This document shows positions 7,152-61,700 of a DNA stretch of 64,000 nucleotides, in pieces (positions within the stretch are counted from its first letter, which is position 1; every line of letters begins with the position of its first letter). A program made the position numbers and the translations under genes. The notes under the pieces are model-generated. The model was not told the origin of the DNA and ran no database searches. It saw nothing but the letters and a program-made list of their open reading frames with translations. Source of the DNA: Halichondria panicea (lineage: Eukaryota; Porifera; Demospongiae; Suberitida; Halichondriidae); the NCBI RefSeq assembly GCF_963675165.1, contig NC_087386.1, forward strand, positions 2,234,169 to 2,298,168, read 5' to 3'.

Positions 7152-10100
7152 ATGGCTGAATCTACAACACTGAATGCTGCTAGGTTGATGGAGGATGGAC
7201 TCAAGGATTGGGAAAGGGTATGATATTCACATGATAGATAGATACTCAATGATCAGTGCATTCTCCTAGTGCCTAGATGTACTTGTTGACCACCCATAAA
7301 CACACTTGGCATCATTCATTCATCACAGTATAGTGCCTACACTCTACCCTGTCAGTGTGAGGTGTTTTATCTCATGTTGTTGTTCTCTCCACATGTACCA
7401 CTCTCTCTGGATGGACAACAGGGAGTGATTGAGGTACGTATTTAGTATGATCACATTCTACCAAGCTGACATGCTTGTGCTCTGAGCACTTGTTGTTAGG
7501 AGGTAGACAGTGTAAAGAAGAGCACATACGGATAACTGAATGTGATACTATTCCTTAATTGAGACAAGTAGATCTACTCGTAGTATAGCCTCCTTCACCG
7601 GCCTTCATAGAAAAGAAGGCCTGCTATCGACTGCTTGCGCATGCGCCAAATTATTGGATATTTTTTCCCGTAAAATTTCCTATAATACTGGATTCATCAG
7701 AGAAAATATCCTAAAAGTCATACACAGAGCTATATAGCTAGCTAGCTAGAGACAGAGCTGTGTATGTTTGTTGTACAGCTATTTTCCTTTGATAGAATCA
7801 GTAGCAGTAATAATTATAGTAGACTTTCACCAAAGTTAGTGTTAAATGGGCGTGGCCTGTCCATATAGGCTCTTGTCAGCTTTCACTCCGTTCAGATGAT
7901 CGTCATCCACACTGTTGCAGGCTGTGAGTCTTTTGTTAACATAGCAGGCTATATAAGGGTAGCTATCAGAGAATGCTATCAGATGGGCTAGAAACTCAAT
8001 CGAACTTTCTATCTACTTCCTTCAATCCACTTTCGTTCGTTGTGATGTCACAGTTTTACTGAGCCATATACGATGTTATCCAAAGCCCCCAGATACCGGG
8101 GGGATATTGGCGCATGCGCAAGCAGTCGATACCAGGCCCACTTCCCTAAGTGAAGTGGGAAGTGTGGCCTGGGATCGAGGCTACTCGTAGTAGTACCTGA
8201 AAGTATGCATGGTTAATCAAGTGTTTCAGTCTGCATGTTTGGCTGTCCACAATTGTTTCCCCTCCCCTGAGTCATGCAACAACACTGTACTGTATCACTG
8301 CACTAATGTTCTCTTCCTTCCATTTCATGCATCTCCACCTCACCTTTGACTGACCCTCTGAAACAACAGGCTGTAAGTTGGTGTGTGTTGTCAGAGTATT
8401 TAGTGTCTGTTGCATATTCTGTGATGTTTCTACTTCCCCATTATTACTCTTGTGTGTGTGCAGTGCCATAGTGTTATATAGGGAAGTATTTAGTATGATC
8501 ACATTCAACCTCGTAATCATTCATTTACTATCTTCCCACTGTTTGCCCTGTGGACTCTCCCTCTCTGGATCAACAGTATGTAAGTTGTGTTTGCACGTGC
8601 ACACTCATTTTAATGGTTACTAGGAACTCGTAAATTATCTTTGTCTCTTTCCGTATTGCCAACTTGGTATTAGCCGAGGCCCACACAACTTATTAGGTTG
8701 TAGTTTTAATATTCGTAGAATATACACCTAAGTTCATTAGTTGGTACGTACATTATCGTGTTTGTCTCTTCCCATGCACACACACTCATTCCTATGTTGG
8801 ACCACACACTGATTTGGACTACTGTAGGAGGTGAGCTTCTTACGAGTACTCAATGTCCACACACTAAAATGGTTCAGCTGCAATGTGTACGGATGTACTG
8901 GTTACCTAGCATCATTAGCGTGTGTCCCTTGTCCTCTAGAGCTGACCCTCTCCCTCGTATAGGGTAGACCACGGCTTTAAACTTGTTCAATTCGTAATCC
9001 CATTTTACGGGCACAAGTTCGAAATACCACCATTGTGTACATTGTGTACATGTAAATTTGTGTTTATGTAAATTCCCCAACCAATTAAGTGCCTACTGAA
9101 CCTAAAACTTGTTGCCTATTTCTCAATATTTCCCCAACTTTTTTATTTCTTAGATTTTCTATGCCAGGTCTAGCCACTTGTTGCTATGTGTAGTCAGTCC
9201 CATACACACCAGCGTTCAACTGATCTGATGTCTTGTATGTGTGTTAAGATTAAATCTCTCCCTCACATGTACCATTTGATGTGTCTCAGGATTGGATTAA
9301 GGTATGTTGTGATTGTGTGTGTGTCTCATGAAGTGCAGGTGTTGTATTGTACGACAAACAAAATCATACGTATCAAAGTTGTACATGTAAGATGCTTGTT
9401 GTACCGTTTACCGTCCCTTCCACTGACCCACCCACTAACCCTTCCATTATCTGCTATTGCTAGTACTGAGTACCTGTGTGTGTACTAGCCAGTGTGTGTA
9501 ATACCAGTGTTCATATCCCTCTCTCCTCACATGTACCCTCTGTGGACTGTTACTCAACAACAGCGCGTGAGTTTATTGCATGTACATATAATGGCGTACT
9601 AGGCTGACTTGTATACATGCACTACTGCATGAAGGCAGAAAGAATAACTTGCGTGACTTTATTTAGGATTAGTACGTACTGAAAGTTTCATGCTGTACAG
9701 ACGTGTACTTGCAATAATTGATGTATACATGTGTGAATGCATTCGTGTATTTGAACATGTTCATTTCTCTACATGTCCGTGTCCTACTGCTTGTTAATGT
9801 GACTACTGCTAATGATTACTGGAACAACAGTGGGTAAGTTACAGTATACAGACATGTATGAATGCACTCACTGCTCCTACCATCATCCCCCTCTCTCTGT
9901 TTCCATGTGTGTCTTACGCTGGTGTCTCATTGGACTAAACAGAAGGTGAGCGCGGGACACTGCACTGACTTGTGACTGTACTTGTGTCAGTAATGTTTGA
10001 GTTGCATGAGTACATGTGTATTGGCATTCATAGTGTACAGGTTTGTGATTATATTCTTTTCTCTCTCCCTACATTTCCATGCATGGTTACTGAATATCTG

Positions 10101-13100
10101 GAACGATAGGAAGTGAGTCAAACGATGTTAGCAAACATACCGTACACCTCATATGCATTCAGTTTGTAATAGTCTCATATCCTTACCTAACTCTAGTAGC
10201 TATACTGGTTGCACCTATAGACAACTCATAATGTGTGACCACAAACACACAGTCTAACCCACTCTTGTCTTGTTCACCTTGTCCAGGAGAAGGCTAAGTA
10301 TGAGAGTGAACTGAAGAGTTGTGAGACGGTGAGTGTTGATAGTTGCACTTACTACTCTCGTGGTAAGAGTGGTACACGTAGTCTAGCAGAACGACAATGT
10401 GTGTACATGTACTGTTCATTGTATGATGAATGGTTGCTTTTTGTCTACCTTTTTTTAGGTATGATTTGTAAGTCCACTTTTACTGTTTGTCTGTGTGAGG
10501 TTATACCGTATAGCGGGTAAATATATAATTATGCTCGCCAAGTTTATTTAGGTTGGTGGTTGCTGATTTTTATATTTTGATAATTTGTACATTTGTATCA
10601 GCTGCATGTTCTATTTGGTGGAATTTTTCTTCAGTCGTATATAAATTCTTTACTCCCCCAGAGAAGAGCTGCCCTCCAACAGAGACTGTCTGGTGACATC
10701 ACTGACCAGGACCGGAGACAACTGCAGGGAGAGCTGGTGGAGGTGGAGGGGAAGATCAAGAAGTGTGTCTCAGAGATACAAGAAGATGAGGAGAGTATAC
10801 ATGAAAATTATAAGAGGATTGCTAATATACGAGGACGAGGAGAGGAGAGACTGAGAAAGGAAGGTGAGGGGAGCAAGGAACTTTATAGTACAGTGAGTGT
10901 TGATGCTCATAGTTGCAATCACTCGTACCTATAGCAACTTACATGTAGTGTGTTATTAGTAGACTGTACCTACAGCTGTTGTGAGGTCCTCATACTTTAT
11001 ATAATCGTGTATTGCAAAAGCGTTTGCTCCACCCACAACATTTTCGTTCGCCTATCACATGTGTTGTGTTGCTAGGCAACTGCCCCTGATTGTGCACACT
11101 ACAGTGTACTAGAGCATTGTTCCTGTTACTACTCTACACACTGTGGTGGTATGGATATGGTTTATTGGAATACCAACTTTCAATGATTTGGGTTCGTGAC
11201 GTTGTACTGTGTTACTTAATTATGACAGCATCATGTTAATTCAAGCATAGCACACTCCTGTAGTGATCAGCCACATCATTATTACCCAGTACATGTATTC
11301 CCTGTCATTGGTGGGTCACCCACTTAGCAAGCTTTAAAGGTTTACGATTTAAAGGTGGTTTATGTCAGCTGCTTCATGTCCTTCATTTCCACTGGCACTT
11401 CATTGGCTTCTTACGTATACGCACAGCTGCTGTGTCCAGTTAGATCCATTTTAAAGCAGTTACTGTATATACCGCGAAATTTTCGAGGGGCTATATTTTC
11501 GCTGATTTCATGGGTTAGCAATCCACGAAAATTGTTCTAATTATCTGCTATAACATGCAAAGATTAAAGGCGTGGCTTCTGGTAAGCGGTCAACCCACAA
11601 ACAGTGCAACGAAATGCTTTAGAGGCCATTCCACGAAATATAAGTGCCTCGAAAATTTCGCACTATAAGGTATTATGTACATGTATATACCATACGTATG
11701 TAATCATGTTCTTATCAACTATTTGCTCCACCCACCACCTTTTTAAGCTTGCGTTGCTAGGCAACTGAATGTATTGTACAGTTTAGGCAGACTAGCAATC
11801 ATTTTATGAGCCCGAGGGCGAGTTGCATAAAACATGATGCTATTGTTATGTGTTTTATACCTCACCAAATTATGCTTTAAGGCGACGTGATCGGACTGTA
11901 TGACATTTATACGTACTTGTTGCCTTTATATTGTTTACATGTTTTCCAGACCTCAATGTAATGTTCATTCCATTGTTCATTCCCCCACCCACTCACAACC
12001 ACCATCCTTTTAGTTATGTATTTTGCTTCATATCCATTGGGTTGTGGGGCGTACCCTCTACTGTGCTTACTACATGTGTACTTAATAGTGACATCCATGA
12101 ATGCAAGCATAGCACATTCCTCATGTAATGATCGGTTTAATCACATGCATCATAATTATGGTGACATCATAATAATAGTCCATCTTGTCACCCAGCTCTG
12201 AAGTATTGCATAGTTAACATTCCTAACACCTCATACACACGTCTTGTTTAGAATCGAAGCGGTTGTTTAATGAGGCGATGAAGCACGGACACGTCTTGGT
12301 TAACATTGTCAACATGCTCATGTTTGGACCGGCGGGAACAGGGAAGACCAACCTCAAGTACCTGCTAACCGACAAGCCCCCTCTGCTACAGCGTGACAGC
12401 ACTCCTTGTATGGAAAAGCCAGTACGCATTCGACCCGTGTCCAACACAAAATTCAAGTCAACTGGAAGAGGCTGGGAAGAGATGTCTCAGCCAAAGCTGC
12501 GCAAGCTACTTGCTGAAATCATCACTAAGTTACCAAAAGAAAGCGCCGATCCATCCACCGTATCAAGGGTTGCCGAGAGCTTGAAGAAGATGACCACAAC
12601 CGAGCTAATTTCTGATTCCGATGAGCAAATTTCTGGTTCCAGTTCGAGCCCATTGAGGAGGATCGATTCCGATACACTTTCTGGCTCTGCAAGAAAGTTG
12701 AAGAAAGCCGTTGATGAAGTGATTGCGAGTGTAGTGAGTGGTGTGGCAGAAGAGCTGAAGCCAGCCACACAGGGAACTGACCAACTGTCGAGCAGTGACC
12801 AGCAAGAAGGAGAACTGTTTGATTCCAACTGGGTGTACGTTACCGACTGTGGCGGCCAGCCGCAATTCCACGACATCAGCCCTCTCTTCATCAAGCACAT
12901 TTCGGTGGCGTTGATAGTCCTGCGTTTGATTGACGAACTCTCCAGTTTCCCTTCTGACGAGTACTACAAGGATGGGCAGCTTGTTGGTAGTCCTCGTGCA
13001 TCTCACATGACCCTCGGGGAGACACTTCAGAGTCTCATTCGATCGATTGAGTCCCATACCTCACAAGACAAGAAGCCAAGTATGATCTTTGTGGGCACAT

Positions 13101-15913
13101 TCTTGGATCAACTGGATGAGAGCTCGGATACACTTATCAAGAGGAATCAAGAGATTCTCGACATGCTGCCACCCGATATCAAGAAGCTATTGGTGTACAA
13201 CGATTCTGGATTGAACAATCTTATTTTTGGTCTCAACACAATCAGCCGAGATGACGATTCACTGGCCACTGCCAATAGGATTAGAATTACTGTTGAGGAC
13301 TCTATTCCGCTACAAGTCAAAATGCCCATCTGGTGGTCCTTCTTGGATTCACTTCTCCAGAGTTTATCTGCCAGTCTCGAGCGAGGTGTATTAAGCATTG
13401 GAGAATGTCTCCAATTAGCCACTCGATTTGGTTATTTGCTCAAAGATCTTGAAGCTGCTCTGGTCTTCTTTGACAACGTGTGTATAGCACACTACTATCC
13501 CTCCATTCTCCCCAACACAGTGTTTGTGGATGCCCAGATTCCACTAGACAAGATCACCGAGCTCTCACAGCACGCCATCTTCCTGAGGAATGCTGAAGTC
13601 AAGTCACGCTCTACTCTAAGCACAGGAATGACCAAGGCCGAGTGGAAGAGATTTCGAGATGAGGGCATAGTCACTTTAGGGTTCCTTCGATTCTTTAAAA
13701 AGCATTACGTTGAAGGCATCTTTTCTCCAGAAGATATGCTGTTGATCATGAAAGATCTTCTCGTGATTGCTCCCATTCCACTAGTGGAGTCCACTACCCA
13801 CCAAGCCGAGTTCTTCATGCCATCTCTACTCACATCAATCCCACCTGCTGAGCTAGACAAGATTCGTTCCTCCTTCACAATATCACCCTTCGCTATCTAC
13901 TTTCGTAGTGGGTGTATTCGCTCTGGAGTATTTTGCTGTCTAGTTGTGGACGTGATCAAGAGGTTGGACTGGAAAGTTTTTCTCCCCTCAGGGAAACTAA
14001 TCTGTTTTGCTAAAAATTGTATCCAGCTAAGAATTCCCAAGCACCCGTTTACCGTGGCTCTGATCGACTCCTTCTCGTATATCGAAGTGTACATTGACGT
14101 CCCTTTTCCTTTACGCAATGAAATATGCCCTACGATTCGCAACGAAATTTTAAGCAGCATTAAATTGTCCTGTAAAGCGTTGCATTACAACAACGACACA
14201 CCCGAGACAGGCATCTTTTGCCCATGCAAGAAGAGCACTGGAAGCAAATTGCACCTTGCTGATCTGAGCGAACGGAAGGACTATTGGATATGCTCCCAGG
14301 AGGCACGTGTGTATGGTAAGCTCAGTGACGAACATAGAATCTGGCTGGACAATAGCGAAGGTTCAGGTGAGTATAATAATTATATAGTGTTCAGTAATAT
14401 TGACATTTATGTTTCTCTATGTTAGGTGAACCATCCTCTGTTACGAGAGATGTCACTGAAAGAACAAGTGATGAGCTGCAATACCCCGGTAATAACGTAA
14501 CAGTATATGTAAACATTTGCAGTTTTGGAACTTAACTAGCTAATACATAGTTACTTGATTAGCAGATTATCAAGTAAAATGTGTATCAAATAATTTAAAG
14601 AACGAGTGATCATCAGCCTTGTATGGTAATTGACAAACGTACTACATGAGTGTAACTGCTGTGTCTGCTTTTCCTCAGGTAATTCTGTAATGGAAGATGT
14701 GTGCTTGAAGACGGAAGTACATGTGCATGTTCATGATCAGCGAAATACTTCTAGTAAGCTTTGTTTTGCGTTTTTTGTTTTAATAAATTTTCCCTCCTCA
14801 GACCCTGCAATGGAACATGTGGTCAATAAAACGAGTGATCAACATACCAGTAAGAAAATGTCAATTGGTCAACAAGTTCTTTCGAGTTTGAAAGTTCAAT
14901 TTTTTTCCTGGGTCTAATAATAATGATTTACTTTTTTTTTCAGGTGAATTCTCCTCTGTTACAGTAATGGAAGACGTGTGTAAGAAGACTGGAGTGAGGG
15001 ACCAACAACTAGATCAAGAAATCCCTGAGAGTGACATCATTCTAATCGCGGAGAAATTTCCACACCTGCTGAGCGTGCACAAGGTGGGCAGTACTCTTAT
15101 TCATATACTGTACGTACTTACATAATACAATTATCATTTTTACATTTGGTAATTAGGGATTGAGCATATTGTTCACCTAATCCCTCAATTGTATATATTC
15201 CCTTTGAATTTCCTCTAGAAGGTATTTACAAGGGGAAACCCTCACCAAATGAAACCCTGGTTGATCGTTGGTTTTGTACAGGTTTTGACAATTGACGATC
15301 TGCAACATGTGTACGAGAAACTACACACTGCACATGAAAGTGCCAGCCCTCACTGGTTCAATCTGGGATTGGCTCTAGGTCTCCATCATTCTGTTCTTGC
15401 CATCATCAAGATCCAAAATCATGAAGAGTGTGTGTCTTGCTTGCGTGAAATGTTGGTTAAGCTCCTGAGTACACAACATGTAACATGGAGTCTCCTGTCA
15501 GACGCTCTCAAAAAGCCCACAGTGGATCTCATCAATTTGGCTGATAGCATCACAGGTAACTTTCAATGTTTGCGTATTTTTTTGATTAGCCTGGCTGCAT
15601 GTGGGTCATTTTTAGTGCTTGATATAGACTATCATTATCTTAGCTTTTTTCTTTGCATTCAGCCACAACTCCTAACCTGCTGAATCGACTCAACCTCACC
15701 CCAGCTGACCTTGGTGATGTAACTGATGTCACACGTTGTTATGGCAATCAAGCTGGAGTGGCTCATGCATTGGGAGCGTGGCAAAGTGTGAATCCTTCCA
15801 GAGCTACCTTCAGGGCCTTGGTAGAAATTGCCATAGGACTGAGAAGAGGAGACACTGCTACAGACATTTGTAGATTCATTGTAGAGAATACGAGTGGAAC
15901 TGACCGAAACTGA
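7152..15913 (+). CDS. ROC-COR-Death (Roco-type) protein, copy 1, complete
   Basis: Nineteen exons join without a stop into 1,106 codons. Exons 1-11 are 7152-7217, 7422-7433, 8370-8372, 8577-8579, 8828-8830, 9290-9301, 9564-9566, 9831-9833, 9943-9945, 10110-10112 and 10287-10328. Exon 12 (10662-10863) is a coiled coil. Exon 13 (12252-14366) holds the GTPase: P-loop GPAGTGKTN, then DCGGQPQFHD as switch II, and a degenerate GTFLDQL where N/TKxD is expected. A COR-like dimerisation region follows, then a Cys/His cluster (CPCKKSTG to HRIWL). Four linker exons (14426-15083) repeat a VMEDVCxKT theme. Exons 18 (15282-15555) and 19 (15663-15913) form Death-fold domains (TWSLLSDALKK; NPSRATFRALVEIAIGL). 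No membrane segment is seen, so it is probably cytoplasmic. Relatives signal through GTP-controlled dimerisation; the ligand is unknown. The tiny exons need transcript support. Confidence 0.85.
7422..10328 (+). other. Microexon array of ROC-COR-Death copy 1
   Basis: Ten candidate exons lie in 2.9 kb of intron: GGAGTGATTGAG, GCT, TAT, GAG, GATTGGATTAAG, CGC, TGG, AAG, GAA and a 42-base exon. Every one is a multiple of three, is preceded by AG (usually CAACAG) and is followed by GTAAGT, GTGAGT or a close variant. Read together they encode GVIE, A, Y, E, DWIK, R, W, K, E and EKAKYESELKSCET, all in phase 0. They bridge exon 1 (ending DWER) to the coiled-coil exon (starting RRAALQQ) as one charged helix without a helix breaker. 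Upstream of several exons a similar block recurs (CATGTACC, then CTCTCTGG, then CAACAG), as if the exon-intron modules arose by duplication. A weaker extra candidate is GAG at 7500-7502. Confidence 0.65.
7586..8183. mobile_element. 598 bp inverted-repeat element, 9 bp target duplication
   Basis: The ends are TAGCCTC and GAGGCTA, and there is internal fold-back (CTGCTTGCGCATGCGCC near the left, GGCGCATGCGCAAGCAG near the right). It is flanked by 9 bp direct repeats CTCGTAGTA at 7577-7585 and 8184-8192. The same site in copy 2 (near 23056) has a single CTCGTAGTA and no element. Copies 3 and 4 carry it at the same place. There is no coding frame. A 9 bp target duplication fits non-autonomous Mutator-like elements. 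Confidence 0.85.
11461..11672. mobile_element. Fold-back element in ROC-COR-Death intron 12
   Basis: The left arm reads CGCGAAATTTTCGAGG and the right arm CCTCGAAAATTTCGC, with the inner CACGAAA motif in both directions. It is about 210 bases and non-coding. A related copy lies at about 45144-45350 in copy 3 of the gene. The rest of this intron (10864-12251) shows no gene. Confidence 0.6.
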
Positions 15914-22645: not shown

Positions 22646-24250
22646 ATGGCTGAATCTACAACACTGAATGCTGCTAGTTCCCCACAATTGATGGAGGATG
22701 GGCTCACTGATTATGATAGGGTATGATATTCACATGATAGATAGATACTCAATGATCAGTGTGCCTAGATGTACTTGTTGACCACCCATAAACACACTTG
22801 GCATCATTCATTCATCACAGTATAGTGCCTACACTCTACCCTGTCAGTGTGAGGTGTTTTATCTCATGTTGTTGTTCTCTCCACATGTACCACTCTCTCT
22901 GGATGGACAACAGTGGCACATTAAGGTACGTTGTGTGCAATCACATTCTACCAAACTGACATGCTTGTGCTCTGAGCACTTGTTGTTAGGAGGTAGACAG
23001 TGTAAAGAAGAGCACATACAGATAACTAAATGTGATACTATTCCCAAGTAAATCTACTCGTAGTAGTACTTGAAAGTATGCATGGTTAATCAAGTGTTTC
23101 AGTCTGCATGTTTGGCTGTCCACAATTGTTTCCCCTCCCCTGTGTCATGCAATCACCAGTGTACTGTATCACTGCACTAATGTTCTCTTCCTTCCATTTC
23201 ATGCATCTCCACCTCACCTTTGACTGACCCTCTGAAACAACAGACTGTAAGTTGGTGTGTGTTGTCAGAGTATTTAGTGTCTGTTGCATATTCTGTGATG
23301 TTTCTACTTACCCATTATTACTCTTGTGTGTGTGCAGTGCCATAGTGTTATACAGTAGAACCTCGATTATCCGGCCCTCCATTATCCGGAACCTCGATTA
23401 TCCGGCTTGGCAGTTTTCTCGTTATCAGATCAGAAAATGGGCGTGTCCCTCAAACGCACATGCGCGTTGCAGCTGTTACCATGGAGACATACCTGCTTAT
23501 CTTCTGCGCATGCGCAGACAACCATGTGGCACTGCTGTTTATCAATAAAGTGGGTGGATCAAGGCGTGGTTTATCTATTCGTTTATCCGGCATATTCACT
23601 TATCTGGCCTGCTTCTGGAACCAAGGTGTCCGGATAATCGAGGTTCTACTGTATAGGGAAATATTTAATATGATCACATTCAACCTCGTAATCATTCATT
23701 TACTATCTTCCCACGTGTTTGCCCTGTGGACTCTCCCTCTCTGGATCAACAGTGTGTAAGTTGTGTTTGCACGTGCACACTCATTTTAATGGTTACTAGG
23801 AACTCGTAAATTGTCTTTGTCTCTTTCCATATTGCCAACTTGGTATTAGCCGAGGCCCACACAAAAGTTATTAGGTTGTAGTTTTAATATTCGTAGAATA
23901 TACACCTAAGTTCATTAGTTGGTACGTACATTATCGTGTTTGTCTCTTCCCATGCACACACTCATTCCTATGTTGGACCACACACTGATTTGGACTATTG
24001 TAGGAGGTGAGCTTCTTACGAGTACTCAATGTCCACACACTAAAATGGTTCAGCTGCAATGTGTACGGATGTACTGGTTACCTAGCATCATTAGCGTGTG
24101 ACCCTTGTCCTCTAGAGCTGACCCTCTCCCTCGTATAGGGTAGAGCACGGCTTTAAACTTGTTCAATTCGTAATCCTTTTTTCGGGCACAAGTTCGAAAT
24201 ACTACCATTGTGTACATGTAAATTTGTAAATTAAGTGCCCTACTGAACAT
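22646..24250 (+). pseudogene. ROC-COR-Death copy 2, 5' fragment only
   Basis: Exon 1 (22646-22720) encodes 25 residues ending LMEDGLTDYDR. The microexons TGGCACATTAAG (22914-22925), ACT (23244-23246), TGT (23753-23755) and GAG (24004-24006) follow with intact splice signals. The copy then stops at about 24250, where it meets STOML2 sequence. The coiled coil, ROC-COR and Death parts are missing, so it cannot make the receptor. It is valuable as a fourth sequence for the variable microexons. It lacks the 598 bp element found in the other copies but has its own 299 bp element. Confidence 0.85.
23353..23651. mobile_element. Mariner/pogo-like MITE, 299 bp, TA target
   Basis: The ends are CAGTAGAACCTCGATTATCC and its reverse complement, flanked by TA on both sides (23351-23352, 23652-23653). 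Sister copies have the empty site GTTATATAGGGAA. It is non-coding. The ends resemble Tc1/mariner-pogo MITEs. A truncated relative lies at about 54792-54933. Confidence 0.9.
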
Positions 24251-39894: not shown

Positions 39895-42800
39895 ATGGCT
39901 GAATCTACAACACTGAATGCTGCTAGTTCCCCACAGTTGATGGAGGATTGGCTTGGCACTGATGGTCTCTATAATTGGGAGAGGGTATGATATTCACATG
40001 GTAGATAGATACTCAATGATCAGTGCATTCTCCTAGTGCCTAGATGTACTTGTTGACCACCCATAAACACACTTGGCATCATTCATTCATCACAGTATAG
40101 TGCCTACACTCTACCTTGTCAGTGTGAGGTGTTTTATCTCATGTTGTTGTTCTCTCCACATGTACCACTCTCTGGATGGACAACAGGGAAGGATTGAGGT
40201 ACGTATTTAGTATGATCACATTCTACCAAGCTGACATGCTTGTGCTCTGAGCACTTGTTGTTAGGAGGTAGACAGTGTAAAGAAGAGCACATACGGATAA
40301 CTGAATGTGATACTATTCCTTAATTGAGACAAGTAGATCTACTCGTAGTATAGCCTCCTTCACCGGCCTTCATAGAAAAGAAGGCCTGCTATCGACTGCT
40401 TGCGCATGCGCCAAATTATTGGATATTTTTTCCCGTAAAATTTCCTATAATACTGGATTCATCAGAGAAAATATCCTAAAAGTCATACACAGAGCTATAT
40501 AGCTAGCTAGCTAGAGACAGAGCTGTGTAGGTTTGTTGTACAGCTATTTTCTTTTGATAGAATCAGTAGCAGTAGTATAGTAGACTTTCACCAAAGTTAG
40601 TGTTAAATGGGCGTGGCCTGTCCATATAGGCTCTTGTCAGCTTTCACTCCGTTCAGACGATCGTCATCCACACTGTTGCAGGCTGTGAGTCTTTTGTTAA
40701 CATAGCAGGCTAAGGGTAGCTATCAGAGAATGCTATCAAATGGGCTCAATCGAACTTTCTATCTACTTCCTTCAATCCACTTTCGTTCGTTGTGATGTCA
40801 CAGTTTTACTGAGCATATACGATGTTATCCAAAACCCCCAGATACCGGGGGGATATTAGCGCATGCGCAAGCAGTCGATACCAGGCCCACTTCCCTAAGT
40901 GAAGTGGGAAGTGCGGCCTGGGATCGAGGCTACTCGTAGTAGTACCTGAAAGTATGCATGGTTAATCAAGTGTTTCAGTCTGCATGTTTGGCTGTCCACA
41001 ATTGTTTCCCCTCCCCTGTGTCATGCATCACCAGTGTACTGTATCACTGCACTAATGTTCTCTTCCTTCCATTTCATGTATCTCCACCTCACCTTTGACT
41101 GACCCTCTGAAACAACAGAATGTAAGTTGGTGGGTGTTGTCAGAGTATTTAGTGTCTGTTGCATATTCTGTGATGTTTCTACTTCCCCATTATTACTCTT
41201 GTGTGTGTGCAGTGCCATAGTGTTATATAGGGAAATATTTAGTATGATCACATTCAACCTCGTAATCATTCATTTACTATCTTCCCACGTGTTTGCCCTG
41301 TGGACTCTCCCTCTCTGGATCAATAGTTTGTAAGTTGTGTTTGCACATGCACACTCATTTTAATGGTTACTAGGAACTCGTAAATTGTCTTTGTCTCTTT
41401 CCATATTGCCAACTTGGTATTAGCCGAGGCCCACACAACTTATTAGGTTGTAGTTTTAATATTCGTAGAATATACACCTAAGTTCATTAGTTGGTACGTA
41501 CATTATCGTGTTTGTCTCTTCCCATGCACACACTCATTCCTATGTTGGACCACACACTGATTTGGACTACTGTAGGAGGTGAGCTTCTTACGAGTACTCA
41601 ATGTCCACACACTAAAATGGTTCAGCTGCAATGTGTGTGGATGTACTGGTTACCTAGCATCATTAGCGTGTGTCCCTTGTCCTCTAGAGCTGACCCTCTC
41701 CCTCGTATAGGGTAGACCACGGCTTTGAACTTGTTGAATTCGTAATCCCATTTACGGGCACAATTTCGAAATACCACCATTGTGTACATTGTGTACATGT
41801 AAATTTGTGTTTATGTAAATTCCCCAACCAATTAAGTGCCTACTGAACCTAAAACTTGTTGCCTATTTCTCAATGTTTCCCCAACTTTTTTATTTCTTAG
41901 CTTTTCTATGCCAGGTCTAGCCACTTGTTGCTATGTGTAGTCAGTCCCATACACACCAGCGTTCAACTGATCTGATGTCTTGTATGTGTATTAAGATTAA
42001 ATCTCTCCCTCACATGTACCATTTGACGTGTCTCAGTCTTGGATTAAGGTATGTTGTGATTGTGTGTGTCTTATGGAGTGCATGTGTTGTATTGTACGAC
42101 AAACAAAATCATACATATCAAAGTTGTACATGTAAGATGCTTTTGTTGTACCGTTTACCGTCCCTTCCACTGACCCACCCACTGACCCTTCCATTATCTG
42201 CTATTGCTAGTACTGAGTACCTGTGTGTGTACTAGCCAGTGTGTGTACTACCAGTGTTCATATCACTCTCTCCTCACATGTACCCTCTGTGGACTGTTAC
42301 TCAACAACAGCGCGTGAGTTTATTGCATGTACATATAATGGCGTACTAGGCTGACTTGTATACATGTACTACTGCATGAAGGCAGAAAGAATAACTTGCG
42401 TGACTTTATTTAGGATTAGTACGTACTGAAAGTTTCATGCTGTACAGACGTTAGACTGGCGGCGATAGAGCGACTGGCAAACTGCCTATCAGTCACTTGT
42501 CTCAGCTGAAGTGTAATAAATCGTATGACACTACTAAACATGAATATCGTTATAGATAATGTGGTTAAATTTTGCTACGAGATTCAGCTACTATGGAATG
42601 CACTGAATCCCCTGAAGTGTAAGTGCGGTTACAATTACAGGGCTAATATGATGTTGAGCAATCTGATAGGCTGCAATGCTCGTTGCAGCTGAGACGAGTG
42701 ACTGATAGGCAGTTTGCCAGTCCCTCGCGCTACGCACGCGAGGGGCTGTCGCCGCCAGTCTATACAGACGTGTACTTGCAATAATTGATGTATACATGTG

Positions 42801-45800
42801 TGAATGCATTCGTGTATTTGAACATGTTCATTTCTCTACATGTCCGTGTCCTACTGCTTGTTAATGTGACTACTGCTAATGATTACTGGAACAACAGAAT
42901 GTAAGTTACAGTATGCAGACATGTATGAATGCACTCACTGCTCCTACCATCATCCCCCTCTCTCTGTTTCCATGTGTGTCTCACGCTGGTGTCTCATTGG
43001 ACTAAACAGAAGGTGAGCGGGACACTGCACTGACTTGTGACTGTACTTGTGTCAGTAATGTTTGAGGTGCATGAGTACATGTGTATTGGCATTCATAGTG
43101 TACAGGTTTGTGATTATATTCTTTTCTCTCTCCCTACATTTCCATGGTTACTGAATATCTGGAACGATAGGAAGTGAGTTAAACAATGTTGGCAAACATA
43201 CCGTACACCTCATGTGTGTTCAGTTTGTAATAGTCTCATATCCTTACCTGACTCTAGTAGCTACACTGGTTGCTTCTATAGACAACTCATAATGTGTGAC
43301 CACAAACACACATTCTAACCCACTCTTGTTCACCTTGTCCAGGTTAAGGCTAGGTATGAGAGTAAACTGAAGAGTCATGAGACGGTGAGTGTTGACAGTT
43401 GCACTTACTACTCTCGTGGTAAGAGTGGTACACGTAGTCTAGCAGAACGACAATGTGTGTACATGTACTGTCCATTGTATGATGAATGTTTGCTTTTTGT
43501 CTACCTTTGTGTATGCTTTATATGTCCACTTTTACTGTTTGACTGTGTGAGGTTATACCGTATAGCGGGTAAATATAATAATTTTTATTATTATGATATT
43601 CTCGCCAAGGTTGGTGGTTGCTGATTTTGATAATTTGTACATTTGTATCAGCTGCATGTTCTATTTAGTGGAATGCTCATTCAGTCGTATATAAAGTTTA
43701 TAATAATATTTTTACTCCCCCAGAGAAGAGCTGCCCTCCAACAGAGACTGTCTGGTGACATCACTGACCAGGACCGGAGACAACTGCTGGGAGAGCTGGA
43801 GGAGGTGGAGGGGGAGATCAAGAAGTGGGTCTCAGAGATAGAAGCGTCTGAGAGGAATATACATCGCTATGAGAATGCTATTGCTGAGACACGAGGAGAA
43901 GGACAGGAGAGACAGAGAAGGAAAGGTGAGGGGAGCAAGGAACTTTATAGTACAGTGAGTGTTGATGCTCATAGTTGCAATCACTCGTACCTGTAGCAAC
44001 TTACATGTAGTGTGTTATTACAGGGGCGTAGCTACCATTGTTTCCTGGTTGCCCAGAAACCCCCCCAGGAGCTGCTGAGAAAATTGGGCAGGGCTCCCCA
44101 ATAATTGAAATCAAGCAGCCCTGCCCATCTTTTCATGCACGTGGCTGCAAATCATGTAGAGATAGCACCGTGAATCGTTTCACTTTGGCTAGCTTTGTCT
44201 CAGCTAGCTAGCTAGCTACCTCAAACAAAGAAGACCAAGACTTAAGTTCTAGTATCAATCCTGCATGCTCCAGTATTCTCAGACTCAGCTCTAAGCACAA
44301 CTTTATTCGATATTCAGGAAGGACAAGTTTAGAACAATCTCAGCCACATGAAACCTCTCAGGTAAATGTATTGGTGCTCAGCTAGACTAGCAATACACAA
44401 TTGACACCTGCCTTTTTGAATGTCTATAGCTAGCTAGACTAGCTAGTCTAGCTAGCTTCTCACAAACATGTAAAAAAAAGTCATTACAAACAATGAGCAG
44501 TAGGTGTAACCAGTAGGTGTGCCCCAATCAAGAGGGTGTGGCACCGGAAGTAGGCGTGGTTAAATTTCCCGGCGCTACCGCGCCGCTGGTTTTTCAAAAG
44601 GAAACCCCTATGTCAAAAGTCTGGCTACGCCCCTGTATTAGTAGACTGTACCTACAGCTGTTGTGAGGTCCTCATACTTTATATAATCGTGTATTGCAAA
44701 AGCGTTGGCTCCACCCAACATTTTCGTTCGCTTATCACATTTGTTGTGTTGCTAGGCAACTGCCCCTGATTGTGCACACTACAGTGTACTAGAGCATTGT
44801 TCCTGTTACTACTCTACACACTGTGGTGGTATGGATATGGTTTATTGGACTTTATTAATACTAACTTTCAATGATTTGGGTTCGTGACGTTGTACTGTGT
44901 TACTTAATCATGACATCATCATGTTAATTCAAGCATAGCACATTCCTGTAGTGATCAGCCACATCATTATTACCCAGTACATGTATTCCCTGTCATTGGT
45001 GGGTCACCCACTTAGCAAGCTTTAAAGGTTTACGATTTAAAGGTGGTTTATGTTCAGCTGCTTCATGTCCTTCATTTCCACTGACACTTCATTGGCTTCT
45101 TACGTATACGCACAGCTGCTGTGTCCAGTTAAAGCAGTTACCATGTATAGTGCGATATTTTCGAGGGGCTTAATTTTCGCTGATTTCATGGGTTAGCAAT
45201 CCACGAAAATTGTTCTAATTATCTGCTATAACATGCAAAGATTAAAGGCATGGCTTCCGGTAAGCGGTCAACCCACAAACATTGAGTGCAACGAAATGCT
45301 TTAGAGGTCATTAGAAATATAAGTTCCTTGAAAATGTCGCACTATAAGGTATTATGTACATGTACATGCAGTACCTATGTAGTCATGTTCTTATCAACTA
45401 TTTGCTCCACCCACCACCTTTTTAAGCTTGCGTAGGCAACTGACTGTATTGTACAGTTTAGGCAGACCAGCAATCATTTTATGACATGTACAAGCCCGAG
45501 AGCGAGTTGCATAAAACATGATGCTATTGTTATGTGTTTTATACCTCACCAAATTATGCTTTAAGGTGACGTGATCGGACTGTATGACTTTATACATACT
45601 TGTTGCCTTTATATTGTTTACATGTTTTCCAGACCTCAATGTAATTTTCATTCCCATTGTTCATTCCCCCACCCACTCACAACCACCATGCTTTTTATTT
45701 ACATTGATAATTATGTGTTTTGCTTCATATCCATTGGGTTGTGGGGCGTACCCTCTACTGTGCTTACTACATGTGTACTTAATAGTGACATCCATGAATG

Positions 45801-58714: not shown

Positions 58715-61700
58715 ATGGCTGAATCTACAACCCTGAATGCTGCTAGTTCCCCACAGTTGATGGAGGATGGACTTCAAGATTGGGAAAGGGTATGATATTC
58801 ACATGATAGATAGATACTCAATGATCAGTGCATTCTCCTAGTGCCTAGATGTACTTGTTGACCACCCATAAACACACTTGGCATCATTCATTCATCACAG
58901 TATAGTGCCTACACTCTACCCTGTCAGTGTGAGGTGTTTTAATCTCATGTTGTTGTTCTCTCCACATGTACCACTCTCTCTGGATGGACAACAGATGTTG
59001 ATTGAGGTACGTTGTGTGCAATCACATTCTACCAAGCTGACATGCTTGTGCTCTGAGCACTTGTTGTTAGGAGGTAGACAGTGTAAAGGAGAGCACATAC
59101 GGATAACTGAATGTGATACTATTCCTTAATTGAGACAAGTAGATCTACTCGTAGTATAGCCTCCTTCACCGGCCTTCATAGAAAAGAAGGCCTGCTATCG
59201 ACTGCTTGCGCATGCGCCAAATTATTGGATATTTTTTCCCGTAAAATTTCCTATAATACTGGATTCATCAGAGAAAATATCCTAAAAGTCATACACAGAG
59301 CTATATAGCTAGCTAGCTAGAGACAGAGCTGTGTATGTTTGTTGTACAGCTATTTTCTTTTGATAGAATCAGTAGCAGTAATATAGTAGACTTTCACCAA
59401 AGATAGTGTTAAATGGGCGTGGCCTGTCCATATAGGCTCTTGTCAGCTTTCACTCCGTTCAGACGATCGTCATCCACACTGTTGCAGGCTGTGAGTCTTT
59501 TGTTAACATAGCAGGCTAAGGGTAGCTATCAGAGAATGCTATCAGATGGGCTAGAAACTCAATCGAACTTTCTATCTACTTCCTTCAATCCACTTTCGTT
59601 CGTTGTGATGTCACAGTTTTACTGAGCATATACGATGTTATCCAAAGCCCCCAGATACCGGGGGATATTAGCGCATGCGCAAGCAGTCGATACCAGGCCC
59701 ACTTTCCTAAGTGAAGTGGGAAGTGCGGCCTGGGATCGAGGCTACTCGTAGTAGTACCTGAAAGTATGCATGGTTAATCAAGTGTTTCAGTCTGCATGTT
59801 TGGCTGTCCACAATTGTTTCCCCTCCCCTGTGTCATGCAATCACCAGTGTACTGTATCACTGCACTAATGTTCTCTTCCTTCCATTTCATGTATCTCCAC
59901 CTCACCTTTGACTGACCCTCTGAAACAACAGCCTGTAAGTTGGTGTGTGTTGTCAGAGTATTTAGTGTCTGTTGGATATTCTGTGATGTTTCTACTTCCC
60001 CATTATTACTCTTGTGTGTGTGCAGTGCCATAGTGTTATATAGGGAAATATTTAGTATGATCACATTCAACCTCGTAATCATTCATTTACTATCTTCCCA
60101 CGTGTTTGCCCTGTGGACTCTCCCTCTCTGGATCAACAGTGTGTAAGTTGTGTTTGCACGTGCACACTCATTTTAATGGTTACTAGGAACTCGTAAATTG
60201 TCTTTGTCTCTTTCCATATTGCCAACTTGGTATTAGCCAGGCCCACACAACTTATTAGGTTGTAGTTTTAATATTCGTAGAATATACACCTAAGTTCATT
60301 AGTTGGTACGTACATTATCGTGTTTGTCTCTTCCCATGCACACACTCATTCCTATGTTGGACCACACACTGATTTGGACTATTGTAGTACTTGCAATAAT
60401 TGATGTATACATGTGTGAATGCATTCGTGTATTTGAACATGTTCATTTCTCTACATGTCCGTGTCCTACTGCTTGTTAATGTGACTACTGCTAATGATTA
60501 CTGGAACAACAGTGGGTAAGTTACAGTATACAGACATGTATGAATGCACTCACTGCTCCTACCATCATCCCCCTCTCTCTGTTTCCATGTGTGTCTTACG
60601 CTGGTGTCTCATTGGACTAAACAGAAGGTGAGCGGGACACTGCACTGACTTGTGACTGTACTTGTGTCAGTAATGTTTGAGTTGCATGAGTACATGTGTA
60701 TTGGCATTCATAGTGTACAGGTTTGTGATTATATTCTTTTCTCTCTCCCTACATTTCCATGGTTACTGAATATCTGGAACGATAGGAAGTGAGTCAAACA
60801 ATGTTGGCAAACATACCGTACACCTCATATGCATTCAGTTTGTAATAGTCTCATATCCTTACCTGACTCTAGTAGCTATACTGGTTGCTCCTATAGACAA
60901 CTCATAATGTGTGACCACAAACACATAGTCTAACCCACTCTTGTCTTGTTCACCTTGTCCAGTTGAAGGCTGAGGAGGAGAGTAAACTGAAGCGTCATGA
61001 GACGGTGAGTGTTGACAGTTGCACTTACTACTCTCGTGGTAAGAGTGGTACACGTAGTCTAGCAGAACGACATTGTGTGTACATGTACTGTCCATTGTAT
61101 GATGAATAGTTGCTTTTTGTCTACCTTTGTGTATGTTTTATATGTCCACTTTTACTGTTTGACTGTGTGAGGTTATACCGTATAGCGGGTAAATATAATA
61201 ATTTTATGATATACTCGCCAAATATATTTAGGTTGGTGGTTGCTGATTTTTATATTTTGATAATTTGTACATTTGTATCAGCTAGCTGCATGTTCTATTT
61301 GGTGGAATTTTTCTTCAGTCGTATATAAATTCTTTACTCCCCCAGAGAAGAGCTGCCCTCCAACAGAGACTGTCTGGTGACATCACTGACCAGGACCGGA
61401 GTCAACTGCAGGGAGAGCTGGAGGAGGTGGAGGGGGAGATCAAGAAGTGTGTCTCAGAGATACAAAAGTGTGAGAGTGATATAGATTACTATGAGAATCA
61501 CATTGCTGAGAGACGAGGAAGAGCAGAGAGACAGAGAAAGGAAGGTGAGGGGAGCAAGGAACTTTATAGTACAGTGAGTGTTGATGCTCATAGTTGCAAT
61601 CACTCGTACCTGTAGCAACTTACATGTAGTGTGTTATTAGTAGACTGTACCTACAGCTGTTGTGAGGTCCTCATACTTTATATAATCGTGTATTGCAAAA

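Follow-up and report, generated by a model that had tools for sequence, protein, structure and literature searches.

Can a run of predicted exons, most of them a single codon long, be genuine coding sequence, and if so, why do the codons differ between gene copies while the introns around them scarcely change? The question is raised by a 64,000-nucleotide (nt) stretch of the genome of the sponge Halichondria panicea (contig NC_087386.1, positions 2,234,169 to 2,298,168; hereafter, the window), in which copies of a gene that the initial annotation termed ROC-COR-Death carry a chain of 3- and 12-nt segments between AG acceptors and strong donors. Computation supports the view that these segments are protein-coding exons belonging to a multigene family that resides on two contigs, C10 and C13; beyond this, it is probable, judging from comparison of the copies, that the microexons are normally included and that the helix which they encode, hypervariable and serving in recognition, is under extreme diversifying selection. 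Between exon 1 and a 42-nt exon, the coding sequence of copy 1 is made up of nine microexons (12, 3, 3, 3, 12, 3, 3, 3, and 3 nt), each bounded by an AG acceptor and a good donor, and seven of the nine microexons per array are single-codon exons. The features of copy 1 are as follows (window positions; a to g denote heptad positions).

7152..7217, plus strand: exon 1, 66 nt (22 codons), ending in phase 0 before GTATGA; aligned in 25 copies
7422..7433, plus strand: microexon e2, 12 nt, GGAGTGATTGAG, heptad f g a b
8370..8372, plus strand: microexon m2, 3 nt, GCT, heptad c
8577..8579, plus strand: microexon m3, 3 nt, TAT, heptad d
8828..8830, plus strand: microexon m4, 3 nt, GAG, near-invariant, heptad e
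9290..9301, plus strand: microexon m5, 12 nt, GATTGGATTAAG, heptad f g a b
9564..9566, plus strand: microexon m6, 3 nt, CGC, heptad c
9831..9833, plus strand: microexon m7, 3 nt, TGG, heptad d
9943..9945, plus strand: microexon m8, 3 nt, AAG, invariant, heptad e
10110..10112, plus strand: microexon m9, 3 nt, GAA, heptad f
10287..10328, plus strand: 42-nt exon, two heptads in a register shared with the microexons
10662..10892, plus strand: coiled-coil exon, 231 nt, with ends inferred from sequence
about 10773-10832, plus strand: second hypervariable helix within the 231-nt exon, intron-free, used as an internal control
12227..14425, plus strand: ROC-like GTPase/COR-like exon, coordinates being open reading frame bounds and not splice ends

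Sites of this kind greatly exceed expectation. Between exon 1 and the 42-nt exon (7219-10286), the pattern YAG-NNN-GTRAGY occurs eight times versus 0.134 expected (1,000 dinucleotide shuffles; maximum, 2), and 12-nt sites with a GTA[TC]GT donor occur three times versus 0.134, a count that includes one repeat-borne site at 7750. Across the 64-kb window, all 25 plus-strand 3-nt matches fall inside the four gene copies, and the 4 minus-strand matches are scattered. Genome-wide, CAACAG-NNN-GTAAGTTG returns 83 matches, 81 of them on C10 or C13, versus 3 for reversed controls; when one acceptor-donor pair was searched with 1 to 24 bases allowed in between, 36 of 36 matches were exactly 3 nt long, with no control matches. 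The bases quoted in the initial annotation are all present in the sequence.

A few candidate sites were set aside. The 3-nt GCT at 7921 (also at 40682 and 59488) is probably not an exon, because it lies inside a dispersed repeat of ~600 bp and is unchanging among the listed copies that carry the repeat; the 12-nt site at 7750 lies in the same repeat and was not counted as an exon; and a CCA at 9489, which has a poor donor and is invariant among the copies listed, was dropped. The repeat itself (window positions 7586-8183, and also in copies 2 and 3) has inverted stretches of ~47 bp near its ends, looks like a miniature inverted-repeat transposable element, and is matched at 91 to 95% identity on at least 15 contigs besides C10. 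Some C10 copies carry it within the e2-m2 intron, whose median length of 332 bp is too short to accommodate it.

To place the arrays in a family, the coiled-coil exon of copy 1 was used as a query, which identified at least 43 genomic places, every one of them on C10 or C13 (two further short fragments were excluded). The sample analyzed here comprises 36 gene regions, i.e., 34 of the 43 coiled-coil places plus two others, with 9 places left out; 26 of the 36 have complete arrays of nine microexons at the expected lengths. When segment length was left free, 279 of 324 site-copy slots could be measured (44 lacked a recognizable acceptor and 1 a donor), and 276 of the 279 are divisible by three: 275 have the expected length of 3 or 12 nt, and one is 36 nt long. 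The 3 exceptions all come from one 12-nt site, at which an ambiguous GTACGT donor was scored four bases late, such that the early claim of lengths that are all multiples of three is borne out.

The segments also behave as codons. Nine variable positions supply 282 codons, none of which is a stop, versus 7.69 stops expected from within-position base shuffles (0 of 2,000 shuffles reached zero). A single one encodes proline, versus 8.05 expected, and it belongs to copy 3, a copy that has lost three microexons. Pairs of copies with differing codons differ nonsynonymously in 3,756 cases and synonymously in 27. Not every position varies, and the original statement that the microexons differ between copies holds for most of them, excepting m4 (GAG in 29 of 31 copies) and m8 (AAG in 31 of 31); likewise, e2 ends in ATT plus GAG or AAG in 31 of 31 copies, and ATT is present within m5 in 30 of 32.

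The joined codons have a clear periodicity. The lengths fall into groups of 12+3+3+3, 12+3+3+3, and then 3 nt, and each four-exon group therefore encodes exactly seven residues. Residue entropy (from 26 copies for the microexons and 25 for the 42-nt exon, with rounded entropies used in the period test) varies with a period of seven residues that runs in phase from the microexons into the 42-nt exon: the joint amplitude of 0.71 was reached in 0 of 20,000 shuffles of 15 residues, and that of the microexons alone in 7 of 20,000. Heptad positions c, d, f, and g are variable, and a, b, and e are nearly constant; projected on a helical wheel, a, e, and b line up as a stripe (Ile at a, Glu or Lys at b and e), with f, c, g, and d on the opposite face. 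At position d of module 1, 24 of 26 copies have a hydrophobic or aromatic residue, Cys, or His. Periodicity is weak in exon 1 (19 copies). Codon composition, heptad period, and lengths thus agree with the proposal that in-frame segments behave as exons and complete one helix, and the heptad period, together with codon diversity across copies, upholds the description of a modular and diversifying helical segment.

How sharply the codons stand out is apparent from the paralogue comparison that the initial annotation had proposed, between microexon codons and the adjacent 30 intron bases. At eight main codons, diversity at bases 1 and 2 is 0.58 to 0.77 (near saturation) versus 0.006 to 0.055 in the 30 bases upstream, and equal divergence was not seen; intron interiors, which were not used for finding sites, have diversities of 0.008 to 0.078. 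Some third bases are nearly fixed: m2 is NNT in 30 of 31 copies while using 13 of the 16 NNT codons, and the third base is T at m3 in 30 of 32 copies and at codon 1 of m5 in 32 of 32. All 26 complete copies have distinct eight-residue signatures. The closest pair (C13_6030k and C13_6402k) differs at 19 of 1,777 intron positions and in all eight codons; the ROC-like exon beside the first of these arrays shares 43% identity with that of copy 1 and contains one in-frame stop, and the one beside the second shares 82%. Codon difference depends little on intron distance, being 0.67 per site (6.9 of 8 codons) at distances of 1 to 2% and 0.70 (7.4 of 8) at 6 to 10% (correlation, 0.21). There may nevertheless be a weak overall link between codon identity and intron similarity: across 12 codon sites and 8 introns, 16 of 96 tests have p<0.05 versus ~5 expected, the introns being intercorrelated. 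No local link was seen, in that tests of directly adjacent introns have p<0.05 in 2 of 20 cases.

The 231-nt exon provides an internal control. It holds a second helix (I-Q-x-x-E-x-x-I-H-x-x-E-x-x-I-A) that is intron-free, has the same spacing as the microexon helix, and is about as strongly variable, at mostly the same positions. Diversity is 0.60 at bases 1 and 2 of its 7 hypervariable codons and 0.030 at the third bases of its 40 constant codons; among the constant codons interspersed with hypervariable ones, those for Ile, Glu, Ala, and Arg have a third-base diversity of 0.00 and that for His one of 0.15. Because the same pattern occurs within one uninterrupted exon, the microexons do not cause the variability, and because the same heptad positions vary in the 42- and 231-nt exons, variability is a property of residue position, and selection or mutation therefore operates residue by residue. 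The first description of the segments as variable exactly between the splice sites therefore needs qualification: codons do vary amid near-identical flanks, but the 42-nt exon and the uninterrupted 231-nt exon vary likewise.

A scheme that accommodates these patterns can be sketched. All nine microexons would normally be included in the mRNA, perhaps by 5′-to-3′ splicing in successive steps, each of which would append a codon and provide the donor for the following step. The resulting helix may pair with the second hypervariable helix downstream as a hairpin, whose exposed face would recognize variable partners (pathogen, symbiont, or self/nonself), with the ROC-like GTPase and the C-terminal portion of the protein relaying the signal. 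Diversity would come from very strong selection on each copy for amino acid change, a reading supported by the silent third base having stayed T at m2, m3, and codon 1 of m5.

Several observations weigh against this scheme. Extreme selection would be needed: in raw per-site terms, codon bases 1 and 2 exceed introns ~19-fold in a median pair and 82-fold in the closest one. Third bases have diversities of 0.45 to 0.70 at five of the eight main codons, a variation that is partly forced by Trp and Met codons but partly silent (e.g., C/T at m6), and the third bases of the 7 hypervariable control-exon codons average 0.36. The contrast with introns is also less absolute than the overall figures imply: flanks served to find the sites, so that flank diversity is somewhat underestimated, and the first 20 bases of two introns reach a diversity of 0.115. 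Position d of module 2 is hydrophobic or aromatic in only 13 of 26 copies, no more than its neighbors in module 1, and a classical coiled coil is therefore unsupported. At least 7 ROC-like exons of the family have in-frame stops, and one of the 26 complete copies (C10_2311k) has an out-of-frame exon 1 as extracted. Finally, the identity of the signaling part is uncertain. Although Pfam Roc matches 5 of 5 members, the best E value is 0.13, below the gathering cut-off; the structure model of the ROC-like exon is poor (mean predicted local distance difference test score, 33.2); and no Pfam death domain was found in the two C-terminal stretches tried, the death-domain label being that of the initial annotation.

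Other explanations account for parts of the same evidence. That the 3-nt segments are chance or noncoding motifs is very improbable: one strong site (7921) truly is a repeat-borne false positive, but the site excess, codon composition, heptad period, length multiples, and genome-wide 3-nt result all oppose it. An unlikely account, in line with the suggestion of the initial annotation, treats the microexons as regulated cassettes: depending on cell type or individual, one codon or an entire seven-residue module would be skipped, altering the helix and hence partner choice. The nine microexons are all in phase 0 and multiples of three, such that any subset would be in frame; omitting a whole module keeps the heptad register, as a matter of arithmetic; and schistosome micro-exon genes are said to splice alternatively (PMC4350168, as far as the accessible part of that source goes). 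Multiples of three are, however, demanded by coding alone, and variability follows the heptad register more closely when every one-codon exon is retained: dropping any one of them reduces the joint amplitude to 0.54 to 0.63 (versus 0.69 on dropping a 12-nt exon), a mild argument against routine single-codon skipping.

The remaining alternatives concern the source of the diversity. It seems to us rather unlikely that targeted diversification, by a mutator or by very short-tract templated conversion, rewrites the codons and that selection only filters the result. Codons are near saturation even in the closest copies, there is no shoulder of raised diversity beside them, and third bases vary at five of the eight main codons, all as this account expects; moreover, pairs with identical 80-bp flanks on both sides share the codon no more often than pairs overall (15 of 165 [9.1%] versus 377 of 3,813 [9.9%]; 5 of 36 [13.9%] for identity over 100-bp flanks), although the test is weak because near flanks carry few markers. 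Against it, a codon-blind mutator should alter silent bases, yet T is kept in 30 of 31 copies at m2, 30 of 32 at m3, and 32 of 32 at codon 1 of m5, and like diversity is present inside an uninterrupted exon in which adjacent codons are untouched. The stronger version, in which a dedicated mechanism rewrites single receptor codons and one-codon exons let residues be exchanged or skipped singly, would make the array an inherited codon-by-codon repertoire generator, an idea that the sequence data leave improbable. Old codon alleles held by balancing selection, with introns homogenized by gene conversion, would fit with the recurrence of the same codons on C10 and C13 and with the movement of segments between genes (five C13 arrays stand just upstream of ROC domains of 43 to 44% identity to those of the window). 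We nonetheless regard this account, too, as doubtful: neighboring bases would share the age of the alleles, and linked silent sites should therefore be old, whereas third bases of the constant codons in the control exon have the low diversities given above. Selection for amino acid change in normally included microexons thus remains the preferred reading.

The arrays differ in how well they are preserved, and those of the other three copies in the window are located as follows.

40187..43173, plus strand: copy 2 array with all nine sites (40187-40198, 41119, 41327, 41576, 42037-42048, 42311, 42898, 43010, 43171)
58995..60788, plus strand: copy 3 array without m4 to m6 (58995-59006, 59932, 60140, 60513, 60625, 60786)
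22914..24006, plus strand: copy 4 partial array (22914-22925, 23244, 23753, 24004)

Ten of the 36 sampled copies lack some sites, and some of these appear broken, including copy 4, in which no microexon sites were found after m4, and C13_4965k, in which one site is 2 nt long; for C13_5006k and C13_5768k, sites found genome-wide fall outside the analyzed regions. Five C13 arrays (near 5836k, 5768k, 5592k, 6030k, and 4965k) lie upstream of ROC-like exons that are only 43 to 44% identical to that of the window, and N-terminal cassettes therefore seem to have moved between gene lineages. In e2 of C10_578k, a 24-bp tandem duplication of the acceptor and the 12-nt exon creates an in-frame 36-nt alternative, perhaps a glimpse of how microexons multiply. 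An origin of module 2 by tandem duplication of module 1 was considered but is not supported: the 12-3-3-3 lengths repeat, but the in-order pairing of splice flanks ranks only 2 of 24. No intron-free copy of the joined helix is present among the 54 matches of the search that located the coiled-coil exons; there is one weak match to residues 1-32 (C10:562218-562319; E value, 0.5; one stop).

By eye on the consensus, five of nine microexon acceptors end in CAACAG and six of nine have TGGA in their last 16 bases, which could be a dedicated microexon signal; the acceptor of the 42-nt exon, unlike those of the microexons, is pyrimidine-rich. PF15230, which we take to be the eMIC splicing factor (SRRM3/4), has no match in the genome, a result to be read alongside a positive control that likewise matched no genome.

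Related arrays exist on a third contig, C6, where two ROC-like genes, ~44% identical to the window gene in the ROC-like exon, have their own arrays upstream of a recognizable coiled-coil exon.

C6:5256800-5266400, minus strand: array of 9, 12, 9, 12, 12, and 6 nt, scanned for multiples of three only
C6:5231900-5241000, minus strand: array of 9, 12, 12, 12, 9, and 6 nt, scanned over 1-39 nt, with 6 of 6 being multiples of three

As on C10 and C13, the flanks of the two C6 arrays are nearly identical and the contents differ. A genome search with the C6 pattern, allowing 3 to 15 bases, gave 9 matches, all of 9 or 12 nt and all on C6, with no control matches. Both arrays total 60 nt despite their differing exon lengths, and the first contains three tandem units of ~1.85 kb with two microexons each. 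A further C6 gene (C6:5410600-5420100) has the coiled-coil exon but no array passing the filters in the stretch examined, and two ROC relatives, one on C8 and the other on C14, showed no coiled-coil exon in the ~5.4 kb on their upstream side. Outside this genome, a search of GTDB genome contigs with the P0001 query gave 5 stretches that fit the peptide pattern, none of which was confirmed, and a search of viral contigs with the same query gave nothing.

As for the protein that carries the helix, a P-loop and a DCGGQ motif can be recognized by eye, and a PDB profile search returns weak Rab matches (best E value, 0.16). The window protein has no COR match at E values up to 10; genome-wide, there are 60 COR-A places, 25 of them above the cut-off and none inside the window, and one at C10:390856-391128, which narrowly misses the cut-off with 34.6 bits, is located downstream of the coiled-coil exon at C10:395559. 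Together with the COR-A places, the 67 listed matches to the ROC-like exon of the window indicate a large ROCO-like repertoire. The P-loop, the DCGGQ motif, the weak Roc matches, and the large clustered family recall ROCO proteins and the expanded death-domain receptor families of animals, from which the present proteins depart in their sub-cut-off Pfam scores and in the missing death domain in the stretches tried. In a narrow look at the available parts of two sources (PMC12909245 and PMC8195603), no comparable N-terminal helix was found for sponge NLRs or death/TRADD-N domains.

The closest precedent for the exon layout is provided by schistosome micro-exon genes (MEGs), whose microexons are shorter than 36 bp and are symmetrical in 26 of 33 cases in MEGs 26-32 (PMC4671649), and of which three have ratios of nonsynonymous to synonymous substitution rates of 1.10 to 1.14 in the mature region (PMC4350168). 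Against the remark of the initial annotation that animal microexons usually occur as isolated cases, symmetrical small-exon arrays have precedents in these genes, although single-codon arrays are not described in the portions of the two papers available to us. Within that same compass, the genes resemble each other in having consecutive predicted microexons of <36 bp (here, nine) in the central coding part, in belonging to a fast-evolving family, and in lengths that are mostly divisible by three. They differ in that, here, most of the array consists of single codons, flanks are near-identical, codons are near saturation, and a large ROC-like exon is present, and homology is not claimed. Moreover, MEGs have a long 5′ exon encoding a signal peptide and a small secreted product, whereas exon 1 of the sponge gene is short and, by eye, has no hydrophobic stretch.

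That exons of 1 to 3 nt can be spliced accurately is known from Ncam, troponin T, and plant APC11 and VPS55, and adjacent pairs exist, e.g., of 5 and 12 nt in rice (PMC8042270, PMC8831610, and PMC4674806, each available in part); as far as those sources extend, such genes have one or two microexons each rather than an array of mostly hypervariable codons. In the ratchet points of Drosophila, an acceptor abuts a donor and introns are removed stepwise, a mechanism also proposed for a 1-nt exon (PMC8605326 and PMC4674806, likewise in part); in the sponge genes, AG and GT are separated by 3 or 12 nt, so that a codon would be retained at each step if splicing were indeed stepwise. Using narrow terms, we found no description of consecutive single-codon exons or of a mostly hypervariable array in the accessible portions of open-licence full texts.

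Overall, near-complete difference of codons amid near-identical surrounding DNA suggests an inherited recognition surface, and the family, with its many coiled-coil exon places, looks like a germline immune or allorecognition repertoire. The presence of intron-rich and intron-free hypervariable helices in one gene allows a direct test of whether exon layout affects diversification. If transcripts confirm the predicted exons, the spliceosome would put together two helical heptads mostly one residue at a time, and the recognition surface of these sponge genes would be likely to escape gene predictors.

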